Of a stretch of 48,178 nt of DNA, positions 27,701 to 35,214 are shown in pieces (position 1 is the first letter of the stretch; each line of letters begins with the position of its first letter). Below the pieces are notes generated by a model. The model ran no database searches. It was not told the DNA's origin and saw only the letters and a program-made list of their open reading frames with translations. The translations under genes were made by a program, and so were the position numbers. The DNA comes from Arenicellales bacterium (GTDB lineage Bacteria > Pseudomonadota > Gammaproteobacteria > BMS3Bbin11), in the NCBI GenBank assembly GCA_029287915.1, contig JARFQE010000109.1:1-48178 (forward strand), read 5' to 3'.

Positions 27701-29125
27701 ATGGATTTATTACCTATTTTTCTTAATGTGCGGGAGCGGGATTGTCTCGTTGTTGGTGGTGGCCAGGTTGCTGCACGCAAGATTGCCCTGCTACAAAAAG
27801 CAGGAGCCAGAGTAACCGTTATTGCGCCTGATCTATGCGATGAACTTTCCCAACAGGCTGAAAACAACAAGATCACATATCACCAACGTGATTTTGTTGA
27901 ATCGGATATCAGCAATCAGTCAGTGATTATTGCTGCTACCGATGAACGGCAGGTTAATGAGGATATTTCCAGGGCCGCCCATGCACTGGGTATTCCCGTT
28001 AATGTTATCGACAATCCAGACCTTTGCAGTTTTGTTATGCCATCCATTATTGATCGTTCACCAGTTCAGATTGCTGTATCAACAGGTGGTGCATCACCGG
28101 TGCTGGCGCGTCTATTACGAGGACGACTGGAATCTTTCATTCCATCAGCCTGTGGGCGGCTGGCCAGCCTGGTAGAAGAATACCGAGATGCAGTCAAAAA
28201 GCGATTTGCCAATATTGAGTCCCGCCGTTATTTCTGGGAGCGGATCTTGCAGGGACATGTAGCAGAACTGGTCTATGCTGGACGTGATGACGAAGCCAGG
28301 GCCGCGCTGGACAATGAAATTGCAACTAGTGACGATGTGGAAAGCAATATTGGGCAGGTATTCCTTGTCGGTGCTGGCCCCGGTGACCCAGACCTGCTTA
28401 CCTTTAGAGCACTGCGTCTGATGCAGCAGGCTGATGTCGTGGTTTATGACAGACTGGTATCGGAACCTATACTCGATATGGTTCGACGAGACGCGCAACG
28501 AATCTACGCGGGCAAAGAACGCAATCATCACACTATACAGCAGGAAGACATTAATCAGCTGTTGATCAGGTTGGCCAAAGAAGGTCATCGCGTGTTGCGT
28601 CTGAAGGGTGGTGACCCGTTCATATTTGGTCGAGGCGGAGAAGAAATGGAGGGACTTATGGAGCAGGGCATTCCGTTTCAGGTTGTACCTGCCATTACTG
28701 CTGCTTCAGGCTGTTCTACTTATTCCGGTATACCATTAACACACAGAGATTATTCACAGGCCTGTATGTTTGTAACGGGGCATCTGAAAGATGGCACGTG
28801 TAATCTGAACTGGACAGCGCTAGCGCAACCGAACCAGACTATTGTCTTTTATATGGGTCTGCAGGCAATTAACGTAATTTGCACAGAGTTGATCGCCCAT
28901 AACATGCCATCATCTACACCTGCTGCATTAATTCAGCAGGGTACTACACCAGATCAGAAGGTTTATATTGGCGACCTGGACAGTCTTCCAGAGCTTGTGA
29001 GACTAAATGAAATCAAGGCGCCTACCTTAATAATAGTCGGTCAGGTGGTTAAGCTCAGAGAAAAACTAAACTGGTATAAGAGCGGAAACAGATCTCCGGA
29101 TAAGTCATATGTTTCAGAGAATTAG
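27701..29125 (+). CDS. cysG: Siroheme synthase CysG
   Basis: A 474-residue trifunctional enzyme. The N-terminal half is the precorrin-2 dehydrogenase/sirohydrochlorin ferrochelatase domain ([14 protein letters not shown], then [19 protein letters not shown]). The C-terminal half, from about residue 216, is the uroporphyrinogen-III C-methyltransferase domain with [40 protein letters not shown] and [11 protein letters not shown]. It makes siroheme from uroporphyrinogen III. Siroheme is needed by sulfite reductases, including DsrAB, which fits dsrS upstream. Its last 17 bases overlap cysE. Length is normal for the family. Confidence 0.95.
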
Positions 29126-29888
29126 TGAAGATATCGAATGTGTATTCGAACGTGATCCTGCGGCCAGAAATACACTTGAAGTACTGACCGCCTATCCCGG
29201 CCTGCATGCAATCTGGGGACATCGTCTTAGCTCAATGTTATGGCGCTATCACCTGAAGTGGCTGGCCAGGGTGGCATCACATCTGTTTCGCTGGTTAACA
29301 GGTATTGAAATTCATCCCGGCGCAACCATTGGCTGCCGCTTCTTTATTGATCATGGCATGGGCGTCGTTATTGGTGAGACTGCGGAAATTGGTAACGACT
29401 GCACGATTTATCATGGCGTGACATTAGGTGGCACCAGCTGGGATAAAGGTAAGCGCCATCCAACTCTGGAAGATAACGTCATAATTGGTGCCGGGGCAAA
29501 AGTACTTGGTCCCATAACCATTGGGGCCAGTGCAAAAATTGGTTCAAATTCAGTCGTGGTTAAAGATGTGCCAGCAAGAGCCACAGTAGTAGGTATTCCC
29601 GGTCATATCGTTACCAGTAGTATTGATGAAAATGAGGATAAACGTAAGCAACAGGCAAAAAAAATTGGCTTTACAGCATACGGGGAAACCCAGGACTCAG
29701 CAGACCCTGTGGCCCAGGCTGTAAATCTTATACTCGGACATTTGCACGCTGTTGATTCGCGAATAAACCTGATTGACGAAAAACTCGAACAGGCCGGCCT
29801 TGCTGAGGGAATGGATGAGTTACCCGAACTAGATGTGAAAGAGTTGAGTAGTGGTGATGATGCTTCTGCTGGAGATAAAAAAGAGTAA
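29109..29888 (+). CDS. cysE: Serine O-acetyltransferase CysE
   Basis: A 259-residue acetyltransferase. The left-handed beta-helix hexapeptide region is clear: [44 protein letters not shown] is visible in segments, including the catalytic histidine in FIDHG. It converts serine to O-acetylserine, the precursor of cysteine, the sulfur donor for the downstream isc system. The start lies inside the end of cysG (17-base overlap), so they are coupled. A long acidic C-terminal tail after residue about 170 is variable in the family. A cysE gene just before iscR also occurs in Azotobacter. Confidence 0.93.
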
Positions 29889-29893
29889 TACTA

Positions 29894-29918
29894 ATACTTG
29901 ACTAAATTAGTCAGGTAT
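29894..29918. promoter_or_regulatory. IscR type-1 operator
   Basis: The 25 bases 29894-29918 match every position of the type-1 IscR consensus ATASYYGACTRWWWYAGTCRRSTAT. The half-sites are ATACTTGACT on the left and TAGTCAGGTAT on the right, around AAAT. The site covers the iscR promoter, so holo-IscR would repress this operon, as in Escherichia coli. Confidence 0.9.
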
Positions 29919-29926
29919 TGCATAAT
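29898..29926 (+). promoter_or_regulatory. iscR promoter
   Basis: TTGACT at 29898-29903 and CATAAT at 29921-29926 are separated by 17 bases. The -35 box lies within the IscR operator. The iscR ATG is at 29975. Confidence 0.7.
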
Positions 29927-29974: not shown

Positions 29975-30448
29975 ATGAGACTAACTACAAAAGGCCGCTA
30001 TGCAGTGACGGCAATGCTTGATCTTGCCATCCACTATGAAAAAGGGGCAGTGACGCTATCTGATATTGCTGGAAGGCAGGGCATATCCCTTTCGTATCTA
30101 GAACAATTATTCGCGCGTTTGCGACGCAAAGGACTGGTTAAGAGTACAAGAGGACCGGGTGGCGGCTATCGTCTTGCTACTGAACCTGAAAATATCCATG
30201 TCGCAGAAATTGTTTCAGCGATAAATGAGAATGTCGATGCAACACGTTGTGGCGGTGAGAAAAATTGCTCAAAAGACGATCGCTGCCTAACACACTACCT
30301 GTGGGAAGATTTAAGCACACGTATTCACGACTTTTTAAATCAAATCACTCTGGGTGATCTCGTTAACCAGCCAAATGTGCAGGAAGTTGCCTGCCGCCAG
30401 GAAAAAAAATCACAGATGGCCTCATTAAGTTCAATTGGTACTCGGTAA
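29975..30448 (+). CDS. iscR: Fe-S cluster-responsive repressor IscR
   Basis: A 157-residue Rrf2-family regulator. The N-terminal helix-turn-helix ([18 protein letters not shown], then [21 protein letters not shown]) binds DNA. The cluster ligands C92, C98 and C104, and H107, sit at the same positions as in Escherichia coli IscR. With a [2Fe-2S] cluster it represses the isc operon, acting at the operator just upstream. The ATG at 29975 gives the correct family N-terminus; an in-frame TTG at 29918 would not. Its tail (from about residue 135) is longer and divergent. Confidence 0.95.
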
Positions 30449-30533: not shown

Positions 30534-31745
30534 ATGAAACCTATATATCTGGATTATATGGCCACCACACCAATAGACAAACGGGTGGCAGAAAAAATGA
30601 TGCACTATATGACCATGGACGGAAATTTCGGCAATGCGGCCTCGCGCTCACATGTCTATGGCTGGGAGTCTGAAGCTGCTGTCGATGAAGCTCGTAAGCA
30701 GGTCGCTGAATTAATTAATGCAGACCCCAGAGAAATAGTCTGGACGTCAGGTGCGACGGAATCAGACAATCTGGCAATCAAAGGGGCTGCACATTTTTAT
30801 AGTAAAAAAGGTAAACATATCATTACCTGTAAATCAGAGCACAAAGCAGTGCTGGATACCTGTCGCCAGCTTGAAAGAGAAGGCTATGATGTGACTTATC
30901 TTGATCCTGAAGATAACGGATTAATTGATCTTGCAAAGCTTGAGGCTGCGATTCGACCAGACACTATATTGATCAGCATCATGCACGTCAACAACGAAAT
31001 TGGCGTGATTCAGGATATTGCATCGATCGCAAACATTGCACACAAACATAAAGTTATTTTTCATACAGATGCGGCCCAGAGTGCGGGAAAAACGCCAATC
31101 GATGTAAAAGCAATGGATATCGATATGCTGTCCCTGTCTGCCCACAAGATCTATGGACCGAAAGGGGTGGGCGCCCTGTTTGTGCGGCGCAAGCCACGCA
31201 TCAGGATTGAAGCACAAATGCATGGCGGCGGGCATGAACGTGGAATGCGTTCCGGTACACTGCCTGTACATCAGATTGTCGGTATGGGAGAGGCGTTCAG
31301 AATTGCGCGAGAGGAAATGGCGGAAGATTCTGAAAGAATTCTACGCTTACGTAATCGCTTGCTCGATGGATTCAAGGACATGGAAGTAGTCTATGTGAAT
31401 GGTGACCTGGAGCATCGTATACCTGGCAACATTAATATAAGCTTTAACTATGTTGAAGGTGAGTCGCTCATCATGGCACTAAAAGACCTTGCCGTTTCAT
31501 CAGGCTCCGCCTGTACATCTGCCAGCCTCGAGCCATCCTATGTTTTGCGTGCCCTGGGCAGAAATGATGAACTTGCACATAGTTCCATACGTTTCAGTAT
31601 CGGGCGCTTTACTACAGAACAGGATATAGACAGGGCTATCCAGCTGGTGCGCGATAATATTGACAGATTACGCGAGTTATCGCCATTGTGGGACATGTAT
31701 AAAGATGGTATCGACCTGGATAAGGTTGAGTGGGTCGCCCATTAA
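30534..31745 (+). CDS. iscS: Cysteine desulfurase IscS
   Basis: A 403-residue PLP enzyme. [18 protein letters not shown], the PLP lysine region [12 protein letters not shown], and the persulfide loop [13 protein letters not shown] with the catalytic cysteine at residue 327 are all present. The C-terminal tail [19 protein letters not shown] is also conserved; in Escherichia coli this end docks IscU. It removes sulfur from cysteine for Fe-S clusters and thiolation of tRNA. The ATG at 30534 has AAGG eight bases upstream and matches the family start; earlier in-frame starts (30492) do not. The next gene is iscA, with no iscU in the 43-base gap. Confidence 0.95.
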
Positions 31746-31788
31746 ATTACCGATTTATTGAAGACATGTGATTGGACGGAGAAATATC

Positions 31789-32112
31789 ATGGCAATTAGT
31801 CTGACAGAAAAAGCAGCTGAACATGTCCTTAATTTTATCGATAAAAGAGGCGGTGCAGCGGGATTGAGGCTGGCGGTTAAAACCTCCGGTTGTTCAGGTC
31901 TTGCTTATGTACTGGAATTTGTTGATGAAATAGAAGAAACAGATGAGGTTTTTGAATCAGAGGGGGTCAAGGTGATTGTTGACAAGAAAAGTCTTATCTA
32001 CCTCGATGGCACAGAGCTTGATTATAAACGTGAAGGGCTGAATGAGGGATTTGAGTTCAATAACCCTAATGTTAAAGATGCCTGTGGCTGCGGAGAAAGC
32101 TTTACTGTCTAG
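31789..32112 (+). CDS. iscA: Iron-sulfur assembly protein IscA
   Basis: A 107-residue A-type carrier. [17 protein letters not shown] starts it, and the three conserved cysteines are C35 (TSGCSGLAY), C99 and C101 (ACGCGESF), at the same positions as in Escherichia coli. It receives clusters and passes them to apo-proteins. It follows iscS directly. Whether it partly replaces the missing IscU scaffold is doubtful, since A-type carriers do not fully substitute for it in studied bacteria. Confidence 0.93.
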
Positions 32113-32156: not shown

Positions 32157-32705
32157 ATGCAAACTCCGTTCGAAAACGACTTCTTCGATCTTTTCGGTAT
32201 AGAAAAAACATACTCACTTGATCGTCTGCAACTGCGCGATCGTTTTCGCGCACTGCAGAAAAAGTTTCATCCTGATAACTTTGCCAGTGCCAGTGAACAC
32301 GAGCGTCGTCTATCTGCCCAATATGCAGCTCTGATCAATGAAGCTTATTCAACATTAAGTGATGCAATGCAACGTGGACGCTACATGCTTACCTTGCAGG
32401 GAATTAGCACTGATGAAGAGCTCGATACCAGCATGGATCCCGAATTCCTGATACAGCAGTTAGAATTACGAGAAGATCTCGATACCGCGACAGCGTCTAC
32501 TGACTCAGCTATGGAGATGCTTGCCAGCTTAGCAACCAAGGTGAACAATGAGTTTTCTAAAAGAGAAGAAAGTATCGCCGAGATATTGGATAATACCGCT
32601 GCACAGGACTCTGAGCTGGAAAAAGCACGGCAACTGGTCCGTGAATTGCAGTTTCTCAGTCGCATCCGATCTGAGATTGAAGATGCAGAAGAAGCATTAT
32701 TCTGA
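32157..32705 (+). CDS. hscB: Co-chaperone HscB
   Basis: A 182-residue J-protein. The J-domain motif HPD is at residues 38-40 (KKFHPDNF), and LSAQYAALINEAYSTLSDAMQRGRYML is the family signature. The C-terminal three-helix domain (from about residue 85) normally binds IscU and delivers it to HscA. Both this domain and the J-domain look intact, although iscU is absent here. It lies 44 bases after iscA. Length is typical, slightly longer than the Escherichia coli protein. Confidence 0.93.
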   Translation: MQTPFENDFFDLFGIEKTYSLDRLQLRDRFRALQKKFHPDNFASASEHERRLSAQYAALINEAYSTLSDAMQRGRYMLTLQGISTDEELDTSMDPEFLIQQLELREDLDTATASTDSAMEMLASLATKVNNEFSKREESIAEILDNTAAQDSELEKARQLVRELQFLSRIRSEIEDAEEALF

Positions 32706-32765: not shown

Positions 32766-34646
32766 ATGGCACTGCTACAAATAAGTGAACCGGGTAAATC
32801 TACTAACCCGCATGAACACCGTCTGGCGGTAGGCATTGATCTTGGCACAACCAACTCGTTAGTTGCTACCGTACGCAGTGGTGAAGTCAAAGTACTACTG
32901 GATCAGGAAGGGCGCAGCCTGTTGCCCTCTGTAGTACATTTTCGTAAAGATGGAGACCCTCAAATTGGTTACCCGGCGCTGGAGGCAATAGTCAATGATC
33001 CGATGAATACTATTGCGTCTGCAAAGAGGATGATCGGCCGTAAAACCGCTGATATCAAATCATTACGAGATCAATTACCGTACAACTTTGATGATGAATC
33101 TGCCAATGTCCCGCGAATCATCACTGCAGATGGACCAAGAAGTGCGATTGAGGTCAGTGCTGAAATTCTAACGGCACTGAAAAAGCGTGCAGAGGCTTCG
33201 CTCGGTGGAGAATTGAATGGTGTTGTGATTACTGTCCCGGCCTATTTTGATGACGCGCAAAGGCAGGCAACAAAAGATGCAGCCAGGCTTGCTGGCCTTA
33301 ATGTTATGCGTTTGCTTAACGAGCCAACTGCCGCGGCAATAGCCTATGGCCTTGATCAGGGATCTGAAGGTATATATGCAATCTATGATCTGGGTGGTGG
33401 TACTTTCGATGTCTCCATCCTGCGCCTCAACAAGGGTGTATTTGAGGTGCTTGCGACTGCCGGCGACTCTGCCCTCGGTGGTGATGATATGGACAGGCTG
33501 ATTGCTGAATGGATACTTGATGATATAGACGACGATGGATTGTCGAAAGATAGTTATTTTCTGCGACAGACGATGCTCGCAGCTCGCGAAGCCAAAGAGG
33601 CACTGACTGATAATGACTCAACGAATATAAACCTCAGCCTGCCTGATGGTACGATAAGGGAAATCATGCTTGACCGCAACACCATGAATGGCCTCATTGC
33701 TCCGGTGATTGACAAGACCCTGCTGCCCTGCAAACGTAGCCTGCGCGATGCTGGTCTGCAAAAGGATGATATTGATGCCATTGTAATGGTTGGCGGTTCG
33801 ACCCGGGTTCTCAGTGTAAAAGATAAGGTGGAAGAGTTTTTTTCCAAGAAACTATATACCGATGTTGATCCTGATCAGGTCGTCGCTGTAGGTGCAGCTA
33901 TTCAGGCCGATATACTTGTAGGCAACCGCTCAGCGGATGATATGTTGTTACTTGATGTCATCCCTCTATCGCTGGGCATAGAAATCATGGGTGGAATGGT
34001 TGAAAAAATAATTCCACGGAACGCAACCATTCCTGTCACCCGTGCACAGGAGTTTACTACCTACAAAGACGGCCAGACAGCAATGTCGATCCATGTCGTG
34101 CAGGGTGAACGTGAACTAGTGTCAGATTGCCGCTCACTGGCTCGTTTTGAATTACGAGAAATTCCTCCAATGGCAGCGGGAAGCGCTCGAATCAAAGTCA
34201 GCTTTAAGGTTGATGCAGATGGTCTACTGAGCGTAAGTGCAAGTGAATCAACAACAGGTGTAGAAACCCACATAGACGTAAAACCTTCTTACGGCCTGAC
34301 CGATGAAGAAATCGAACAAATGTTGCGAGACTCGATCGCCCATGCCGAAGAAGATATTCATGCCCGCCAGCTTGCGGAGCAGCAAGTAGAAGCTGAGCGC
34401 GTGATTCTTGCTCTTGAAAGTGCATTGGCTGTTGATGGCGACAAATTTCTCAATGAAGCTGAAAAATCTGACCTCATCAGTGCCATGGAAGAATTGAAAA
34501 GATTATCAGATGGTGGCGATGCCGATGCGATCAAGCGCGCAATCAATGACCTAAATGAGCTGTCTGAAATGTTTGCTGCACGTCGTATGGATGCCAGCAT
34601 CCGTAGTGTCATGGCGGGGCATAATATCAATGAATTCAGTGACTAA
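32766..34646 (+). CDS. hscA: Fe-S cluster assembly chaperone HscA
   Basis: A 626-residue specialised Hsp70. [42 protein letters not shown] and [14 protein letters not shown] are the ATPase motifs; the substrate-binding domain begins near [19 protein letters not shown]. The absence of a C-terminal EEVD and the position in the isc operon separate it from DnaK. It uses ATP to help transfer clusters from IscU. The ATG at 32766 is used; an in-frame TTG at 32754 is less likely. It is followed by fdx after three bases. Confidence 0.95.
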
Positions 34647-34649
34647 ACA

Positions 34650-34988
34650 ATGACAAAATTAAAATTCCTCCCTCATCAGGAGGCTTGCCCTGAAGGACTG
34701 GAAATTGAAGTTGAGCCGGGAGTCAGTATCCTCGATGCGGCGTTGGCGAATGGCATAACGATAGAGCACGCCTGCGAGAAGGCCTGTGCCTGTACAACCT
34801 GTCATGTCATTGTGCAACAGGGCTATGATTCTCTAACAGAACCTACTGACGAAGAAGAGGACATGCTGGACAAAGCCTGGGGATTAGAGCCTGACTCAAG
34901 ACTTTCCTGCCAGGCGATAGTGGCTGATGAAGACCTGCTTATCGAAATTCCCAAATACACCATTAACCAGGTTTCCGAGAACCAGTGA
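34650..34988 (+). CDS. fdx: [2Fe-2S] ferredoxin Fdx
   Basis: A 112-residue ferredoxin of the isc type. The four cluster cysteines are in CEKACACTTC (first three, with the adrenodoxin-like spacing) and LSCQAIV. HVIVQQGYDSLTEPTDEEEDMLDKA is the family's central block. It supplies electrons for cluster assembly. It is three bases from hscA and 25 bases from iscX, so all are one operon. Confidence 0.93.
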   Translation: MTKLKFLPHQEACPEGLEIEVEPGVSILDAALANGITIEHACEKACACTTCHVIVQQGYDSLTEPTDEEEDMLDKAWGLEPDSRLSCQAIVADEDLLIEIPKYTINQVSENQ

Positions 34989-35013: not shown

Positions 35014-35214
35014 ATGTCACTGAAATGGACTGATACCCTCGATATTGCTATTGAGCTAGCTGACAGCAATCCTGATATTGATCCCCTGACCATTGCTTTT
35101 CCGCAGTTGATGGAGATGGTAATGGATCTTGATCAATTTGATGATGATCCTGAACATTGTGGTGAGAGAATACTTGAAGCCATACAAATGGCCTGGGTTC
35201 AAGAAAGAGATTGA
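35014..35214 (+). CDS. iscX: IscX (YfhJ)
   Basis: A 66-residue acidic protein starting MSLKWTDTLDIAIELADSNPD, with the family's DLDQFDDDPEHCGERILEAIQMAW end. It binds IscS and iron and modulates the rate of cluster formation. AGGAG precedes the ATG at 35014; the frame extends upstream only through an unrelated leader. It ends the isc genes. Confidence 0.93.
   Translation: MSLKWTDTLDIAIELADSNPDIDPLTIAFPQLMEMVMDLDQFDDDPEHCGERILEAIQMAWVQERD

Follow-up and report, generated by a model that had tools for sequence, protein, structure and literature searches.

The genes of the isc operon are regarded as being regulated together, with a single feedback sensor, IscR. The operon present in the 48,178-nucleotide stretch of DNA analysed here (the window, meaning the whole stretch) has no gene for the scaffold IscU, and this raises the question of where the scaffold is encoded and how its supply could be controlled. 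The genes run on the plus strand in the order cysE-iscR-iscS-iscA-hscB-hscA-fdx-iscX (Table 1). Protein identities were assigned with the NCBIfam models and their isc-specific cut-offs, which IscR, IscS, IscA, HscB, HscA, Fdx and IscX all reached or exceeded. As in a canonical isc operon, iscR to iscX are contiguous and preceded by a type-1 IscR site; the canonical place of iscU, between iscS and iscA, is empty in the window and in all seven species of the genus. HscB is the co-chaperone that normally delivers IscU, and HscA binds the LPPVK motif of IscU. A preliminary description of this DNA had pointed out that only 43 bases separate iscS from iscA and that the partners of IscU (the IscS tail, HscB with its HPD motif, HscA and IscX) are intact. 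Both observations stand: the gap is noncoding and holds a ribosome binding site only, and the second is borne out by the sequences and the NCBIfam scores.

Table 1 Features of the isc operon in the window and of the iscR2-iscU unit on contig C17 of the source genome (G000)
Feature	Position	Strand	Evidence or remark
cysE (serine acetyltransferase)	29109..29888	+	ORF 5' of the isc operon; neighbour kept in all congeners
Perfect type-1 IscR operator, ATACTTGACTAAATTAGTCAGGTAT	29894..29918	+	0 mismatches to consensus
iscR promoter	-35 TTGACT 29898-29903, inside the operator; -10 CATAAT ending at 29926	+	promoter scan
iscR, canonical, C92/C98/C104/H107 present	29975..30448	+	TIGR02010, 210.9 bits (cut-off 207.55)
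iscS, cysteine desulfurase, C-terminal tail intact	30534..31745	+	TIGR02006, 737 bits, above cut-off
iscS-iscA junction without iscU, no remnant, RBS (GGAG) only	31746..31788	+	sequence; 7-congener alignment
iscA	31789..32112	+	TIGR02011, 169 bits (cut-off 150.6)
hscB, HPD motif (FHPDN)	32157..32705	+	TIGR00714, 101 bits (cut-off 46.75)
hscA, Hsp70	32769..34646	+	TIGR01991, 886 bits, above cut-off
fdx, ISC ferredoxin	34650..34988	+	TIGR02007, above cut-off
iscX, intact	35014..35214	+	TIGR03412, above cut-off
iscU	G000:C17:67323-67718	-	PF01592; TIGR01999
iscR2	G000:C17:67797-68285	-	Rrf2-family gene, 78 bases upstream of iscU

The source genome (2.78 Mb, 95.7% complete) is distributed in 139 contigs, a fragmentation that would favour an assembly or binning artefact as the origin of the gap, and an assembly deletion was one of the three options given in the preliminary description. 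We have compared it with six other species of the genus (completeness of the seven genomes 60-99%). The gene order of the six congeners agrees with that of the window, so that in seven out of seven species, from independent assemblies, iscS is directly followed by iscA without iscU. The alignment of the spacers showed that they have diverged among the seven species, with the ribosome binding site alone conserved. A junction common to all of them with an unconserved spacer is neither a product of chance nor a local mis-join and, with iscU found elsewhere in each genome, the probability of an artefact is practically negligible. The sister genus (G007, 81% complete) gave no match to IscU, IscS or SufBD at the thresholds used, so that no polarity could be obtained from it.

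Another of the three options, that iscU had moved elsewhere in the genome, turned out to be the right one. The search of the whole G000 genome retrieved a single PF01592 protein (E=3.6e-51), located on contig C17, that scores 222.9 bits against TIGR01999 (cut-off 192.4). Cys37, Asp39, Cys63 and Cys106 and the motifs PACGD, YGC, IHC and LPPVK are all intact, and the nearest solved relatives are bacterial IscU structures, e.g. 1q48 and 2l4x. A full IscU is equally found in the six congeners; each of the seven genomes has one, on a separate contig and in a two-gene unit, iscR2-iscU. Wherever the contig extends far enough in the genus, truD is found 3' of iscU, and in G000 a terminator-like hairpin (10 pairs and a T run) lies 3' of the gene. 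These data show the relocation of iscU out of the isc operon, conserved in seven out of seven species.

The remaining option was that the organism uses a different scaffold, for which SufU, SufB, Nfu and IscA were considered. Nothing beyond the iscS-iscA gap itself speaks for it, and with a canonical IscU that retains all its catalytic residues we consider it very improbable. Neither a second U-type scaffold nor Nfu was found in the G000 genome, and SufB/SufD were found in none of the seven genus genomes by a search that was positive in 14 out of 14 control genomes. Despite the 60-99% completeness, this absence from all seven would be hard to explain by assembly gaps. Since SufB/D were not found in the genus, nor Nfu in G000, IscU is probably the sole main Fe-S assembly scaffold in the genus.

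The first gene of the relocated unit codes for a protein, IscR2, that aligns to E. coli IscR over residues 1-132, including the DNA-binding and dimerisation parts. Its structural matches are the E. coli IscR structures 4hf0, 4hf1 and 4chu (E about 1e-24), which are of proteins with mutated ligand cysteines, as PMC8593673 states for 4HF1. In the alignment to 4hf0, IscR2 keeps S38, S40, Y41, E43, Q44, R59 and the RGPGGGY wing, but none of the four cluster ligands: in the genus E stands in place of C92, Y in place of C98, Y or, in one species, N in place of C104, and Q in place of H107. A single cysteine, Cys129, is invariant in the genus and not in other families. Against the IscR model TIGR02010 the protein scores 115.4 bits, below the equivalog cut-off of 207.55, and against that of the Rrf2 superfamily (TIGR00738) 100.9 bits, above the cut-off of 73.3. 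It is present in seven out of seven congeners, with invariant DNA-reading residues and a mean column identity of 88%. By these features IscR2 looks like a naturally occurring form of the Cys-to-Ala IscR proteins made in the laboratory. The canonical three-cysteine IscRs cluster together with good support (99/93) in the IscR tree, and nearly all of the ligand-less IscR2s are placed outside this group; the exceptions are the iscU-linked IscR of G230, which has all the ligands, and that of G234, with one ligand cysteine. In addition, more ligand-less IscR paralogues were seen away from iscU (L099:3814-4296, L102:3842-4321, L107:4184-4693 and similar), often near similar small conserved genes, and they suggest an apparent wider subfamily of cluster-less IscRs in the Gammaproteobacteria.

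The type-1 consensus used in the operator search is the E. coli IscR motif. With up to 3 mismatches allowed, the operator upstream of iscR is the window's only match (0 expected in shuffles), and it conserves 23-25 of the 25 type-1 positions in the seven species. Upstream of iscR2-iscU we found a putative variant IscR-type operator, ATAACCTACCGAAATAGTCAGGAAT, that matches 19-22 of the 25 positions in all seven species (p<=0.003 by shuffling) and has a CC half-site variant, the left half-site being ATAACC at iscR2-iscU and ATACTT at iscR, each in 7/7. A combined operator pattern (up to 3 mismatches) was found in the 2.78 Mb only upstream of iscR and of iscR2-iscU, and 0 times in the reversed control, a result that measures rarity and not discovery because the pattern was built from these two sites. 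A sigma-70-type promoter, TTGACA-17-TAAAAT, precedes iscR2; its -35, most of its -10 and the operator core are invariant in the seven species, with diverged flanks. Type-2 IscR sites were also searched for upstream of iscR2, where the best matches were mostly at chance level. In E. coli, type-1 sites are bound by holo-IscR alone, Glu43 of apo-IscR contacts the CC bases, and TT in one half-site explains the lack of apo-IscR binding to type 1 (PMC5411485, PMC8593673). Given these contacts, one would expect a cluster-less IscR that bears Glu43 to tolerate the CC variant. The iscR2-iscU operator overlaps the -10 at its left edge, however, and this may also constrain its sequence. In other families the operator of the iscU unit is often, or mostly, a plain type-1 site with the TT half-site and, as such sites are not bound by E. 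coli apo-IscR (PMC5411485), holo-IscR may regulate iscU there.

We have surveyed 276 genomes of the class with a completeness of at least 90%, using the window's cysE as blastp reference for the comparison with other families; in 122 of them good matches were obtained for IscS as well as for IscU. The genes iscS and iscU are adjacent in 102 of these 122 genomes, with a median gap of about 40 bases, and the other 20 have them separated. An operon minus iscU was found in 16 of the 122, belonging to 9 families, so that the split is not unique to the source genus; every such operon examined was otherwise complete. The count of 16 leaves out G013, G095, G103 and G209, where iscS moved instead, a different event. 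In this converse split iscS is gone and iscU stays with iscA (L095/L096 in G013, L124/L144 in G095, L127/L147 in G103 and L131/L151 in G209), and also with hscB/hscA in G013, G103 and G209. The ligand-less iscR2-iscU unit is present in 12 of the 16 genomes (6 families). Another one, G230, has a ligand-bearing iscR before the relocated iscU, and the other three (G098, G204 and G274) have a lone iscU with a type-1-like site upstream and no IscR2. Since the lone iscU keeps such a site without IscR2, the arrangement does not require IscR2. The iscR2-iscU cassette was also found in G147, which had no IscS match at the threshold, and in G043, G224 and G234 (one ligand Cys left in the last) in addition to the iscU of the operon. 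These three look like intermediates of a duplication followed by the loss of the operon copy. G172, which belongs to the same family as G043, also lacks iscU in its operon, but no IscU at all was found in this genome, probably due to an assembly gap.

Some other rearrangements were seen in the survey. About half of the examined operon-minus-iscU loci (L142, L143, L146, L149, L150, L152 and L155) carry a second cysteine desulfurase between iscR and iscS, with about 36-38% identity to IscS where measured. Whole iscS-iscU pairs are duplicated on one contig in G101:C1 and G243:C1, at distances of about 22 kb and 101 kb. The IscU of G039 (L112:4919-6340) has an in-frame interruption of about 346 residues exactly before the catalytic Cys63, with the junctions KTYG|CLVSNS...VMSHN|CGSAIASS. 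Judging from these intein-like ends, it is an apparent intein within the Fe-S scaffold IscU itself.

The operon-minus-iscU trait is scattered on both the IscS and the IscU trees. The best trees, with weak support, have 8 changes for the cassette IscU and 9 for the operon minus iscU on the IscS tree. A single origin of the cassette IscU was not rejected (AU p=0.11), and neither was one origin of the iscU-linked ligand-less IscR2 (AU p=0.31). A common cassette neighbourhood across families was largely absent, with truD in the genus and other genes elsewhere. In three families a spermidine-synthase-like gene (judged by eye) was seen beside or near iscR2-iscU (G043:C14, G060:C1 and G224:C1; L093, L122 and L140), possibly a trace of the common descent of the cassette.

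We propose, with a probability of roughly 70%, that these genomes have one complete ISC pathway whose genes are divided between two loci, with iscU in its own IscR-type-controlled unit together with a cluster-blind IscR2. The main operon, (cysE-)iscR-iscS-iscA-hscB-hscA-fdx-iscX, would supply all the ISC parts except IscU, which would be made from the iscR2-iscU unit with its own promoter and serve IscS, HscBA and IscX in trans. Holo-IscR would repress the main operon via the type-1 site, as in E. coli, and the variant operator may tie the iscR2-iscU unit into the same IscR circuit. The regulatory logic of this unit is deduced from sequence, and the binding of IscR2 to the operators is predicted from its residues. 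Unable to hold a cluster, IscR2 might behave as a permanently apo-like protein that regulates its own unit or modulates iscU, and the supply of scaffold would then escape in part the cluster feedback to which the other ISC genes are subject. A stronger version is a two-regulator circuit that recurs in several gammaproteobacterial families, where the cluster-sensing IscR would control the ISC operon and the cluster-blind IscR2, retained to this end, the scaffold, via a hybrid type-1/type-2 operator and independently of cluster sufficiency; we advance it tentatively. Another explanation is a neutral move, in which holo-IscR would govern the iscU unit in trans and IscR2 would be a degenerate passenger of a duplication of the iscR-iscU segment. 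It would fit with the type-1-like sites that persist before the lone iscU and, in most families, before the iscU unit, and with the intermediate aspect of G043, G224 and G234. However, the retention of IscR2 in 7/7 species, with its invariant DNA-reading residues and 88% identity, is not what decay would produce, and the CC-for-TT departure from type 1 of the genus operator is also conserved in 7/7. We regard this explanation as unlikely.

The recurrent departure of the scaffold only, usually with a ligand-less IscR-like protein, suggests that the dosage of the scaffold could be set apart from that of the other ISC genes. The IscR2s would be equivalents in nature of the apo-locked IscR mutants made in the laboratory and, as their genomes also contain the matched operators, they allow a direct test of the type-1/type-2 (Glu43) specificity model. 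In more practical terms, annotating the scaffold as missing from the operon content would lead to an error in about one in eight of the genomes sampled that have both genes. No published description of such an arrangement was found in the open-access literature searched, whose coverage is incomplete.

All eight proteins of the canonical isc operon of the E. coli type, iscRSUA-hscBA-fdx-iscX (PMC8593673, PMC9628965), are recognisable here. Also shared are iscR in first position, the type-1 operator over the -35 and the order of the remaining genes; the difference is that iscU lies outside, paired with a further gene of the IscR family in a unit of its own. As for the regulator, IscR2 shares with the [2Fe-2S] Rrf2 regulator IscR (4HF0, 4HF1, 4CHU) the recognition helix (S40, Y41, E43 and Q44) and the RGPGGGY wing, but it is missing all four cluster ligands and its TIGR02010 score is below the cut-off. 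The Rrf2 tree of PMC9973013 marks the three-cysteine proteins, and IscR2-like proteins may be present in it, unnamed. Another precedent is RisR of Myxococcus xanthus, an Rrf2 regulator that is encoded beside suf genes and acts in trans on isc (PMC9973013). Both cases have an Rrf2 protein encoded off the isc operon, Fe-S assembly genes controlled in trans (putatively so for IscR2) and matched sites, whereas RisR controls the whole isc and suf operons and IscR2 is linked to iscU alone, in a genus where SufB/D were not found.
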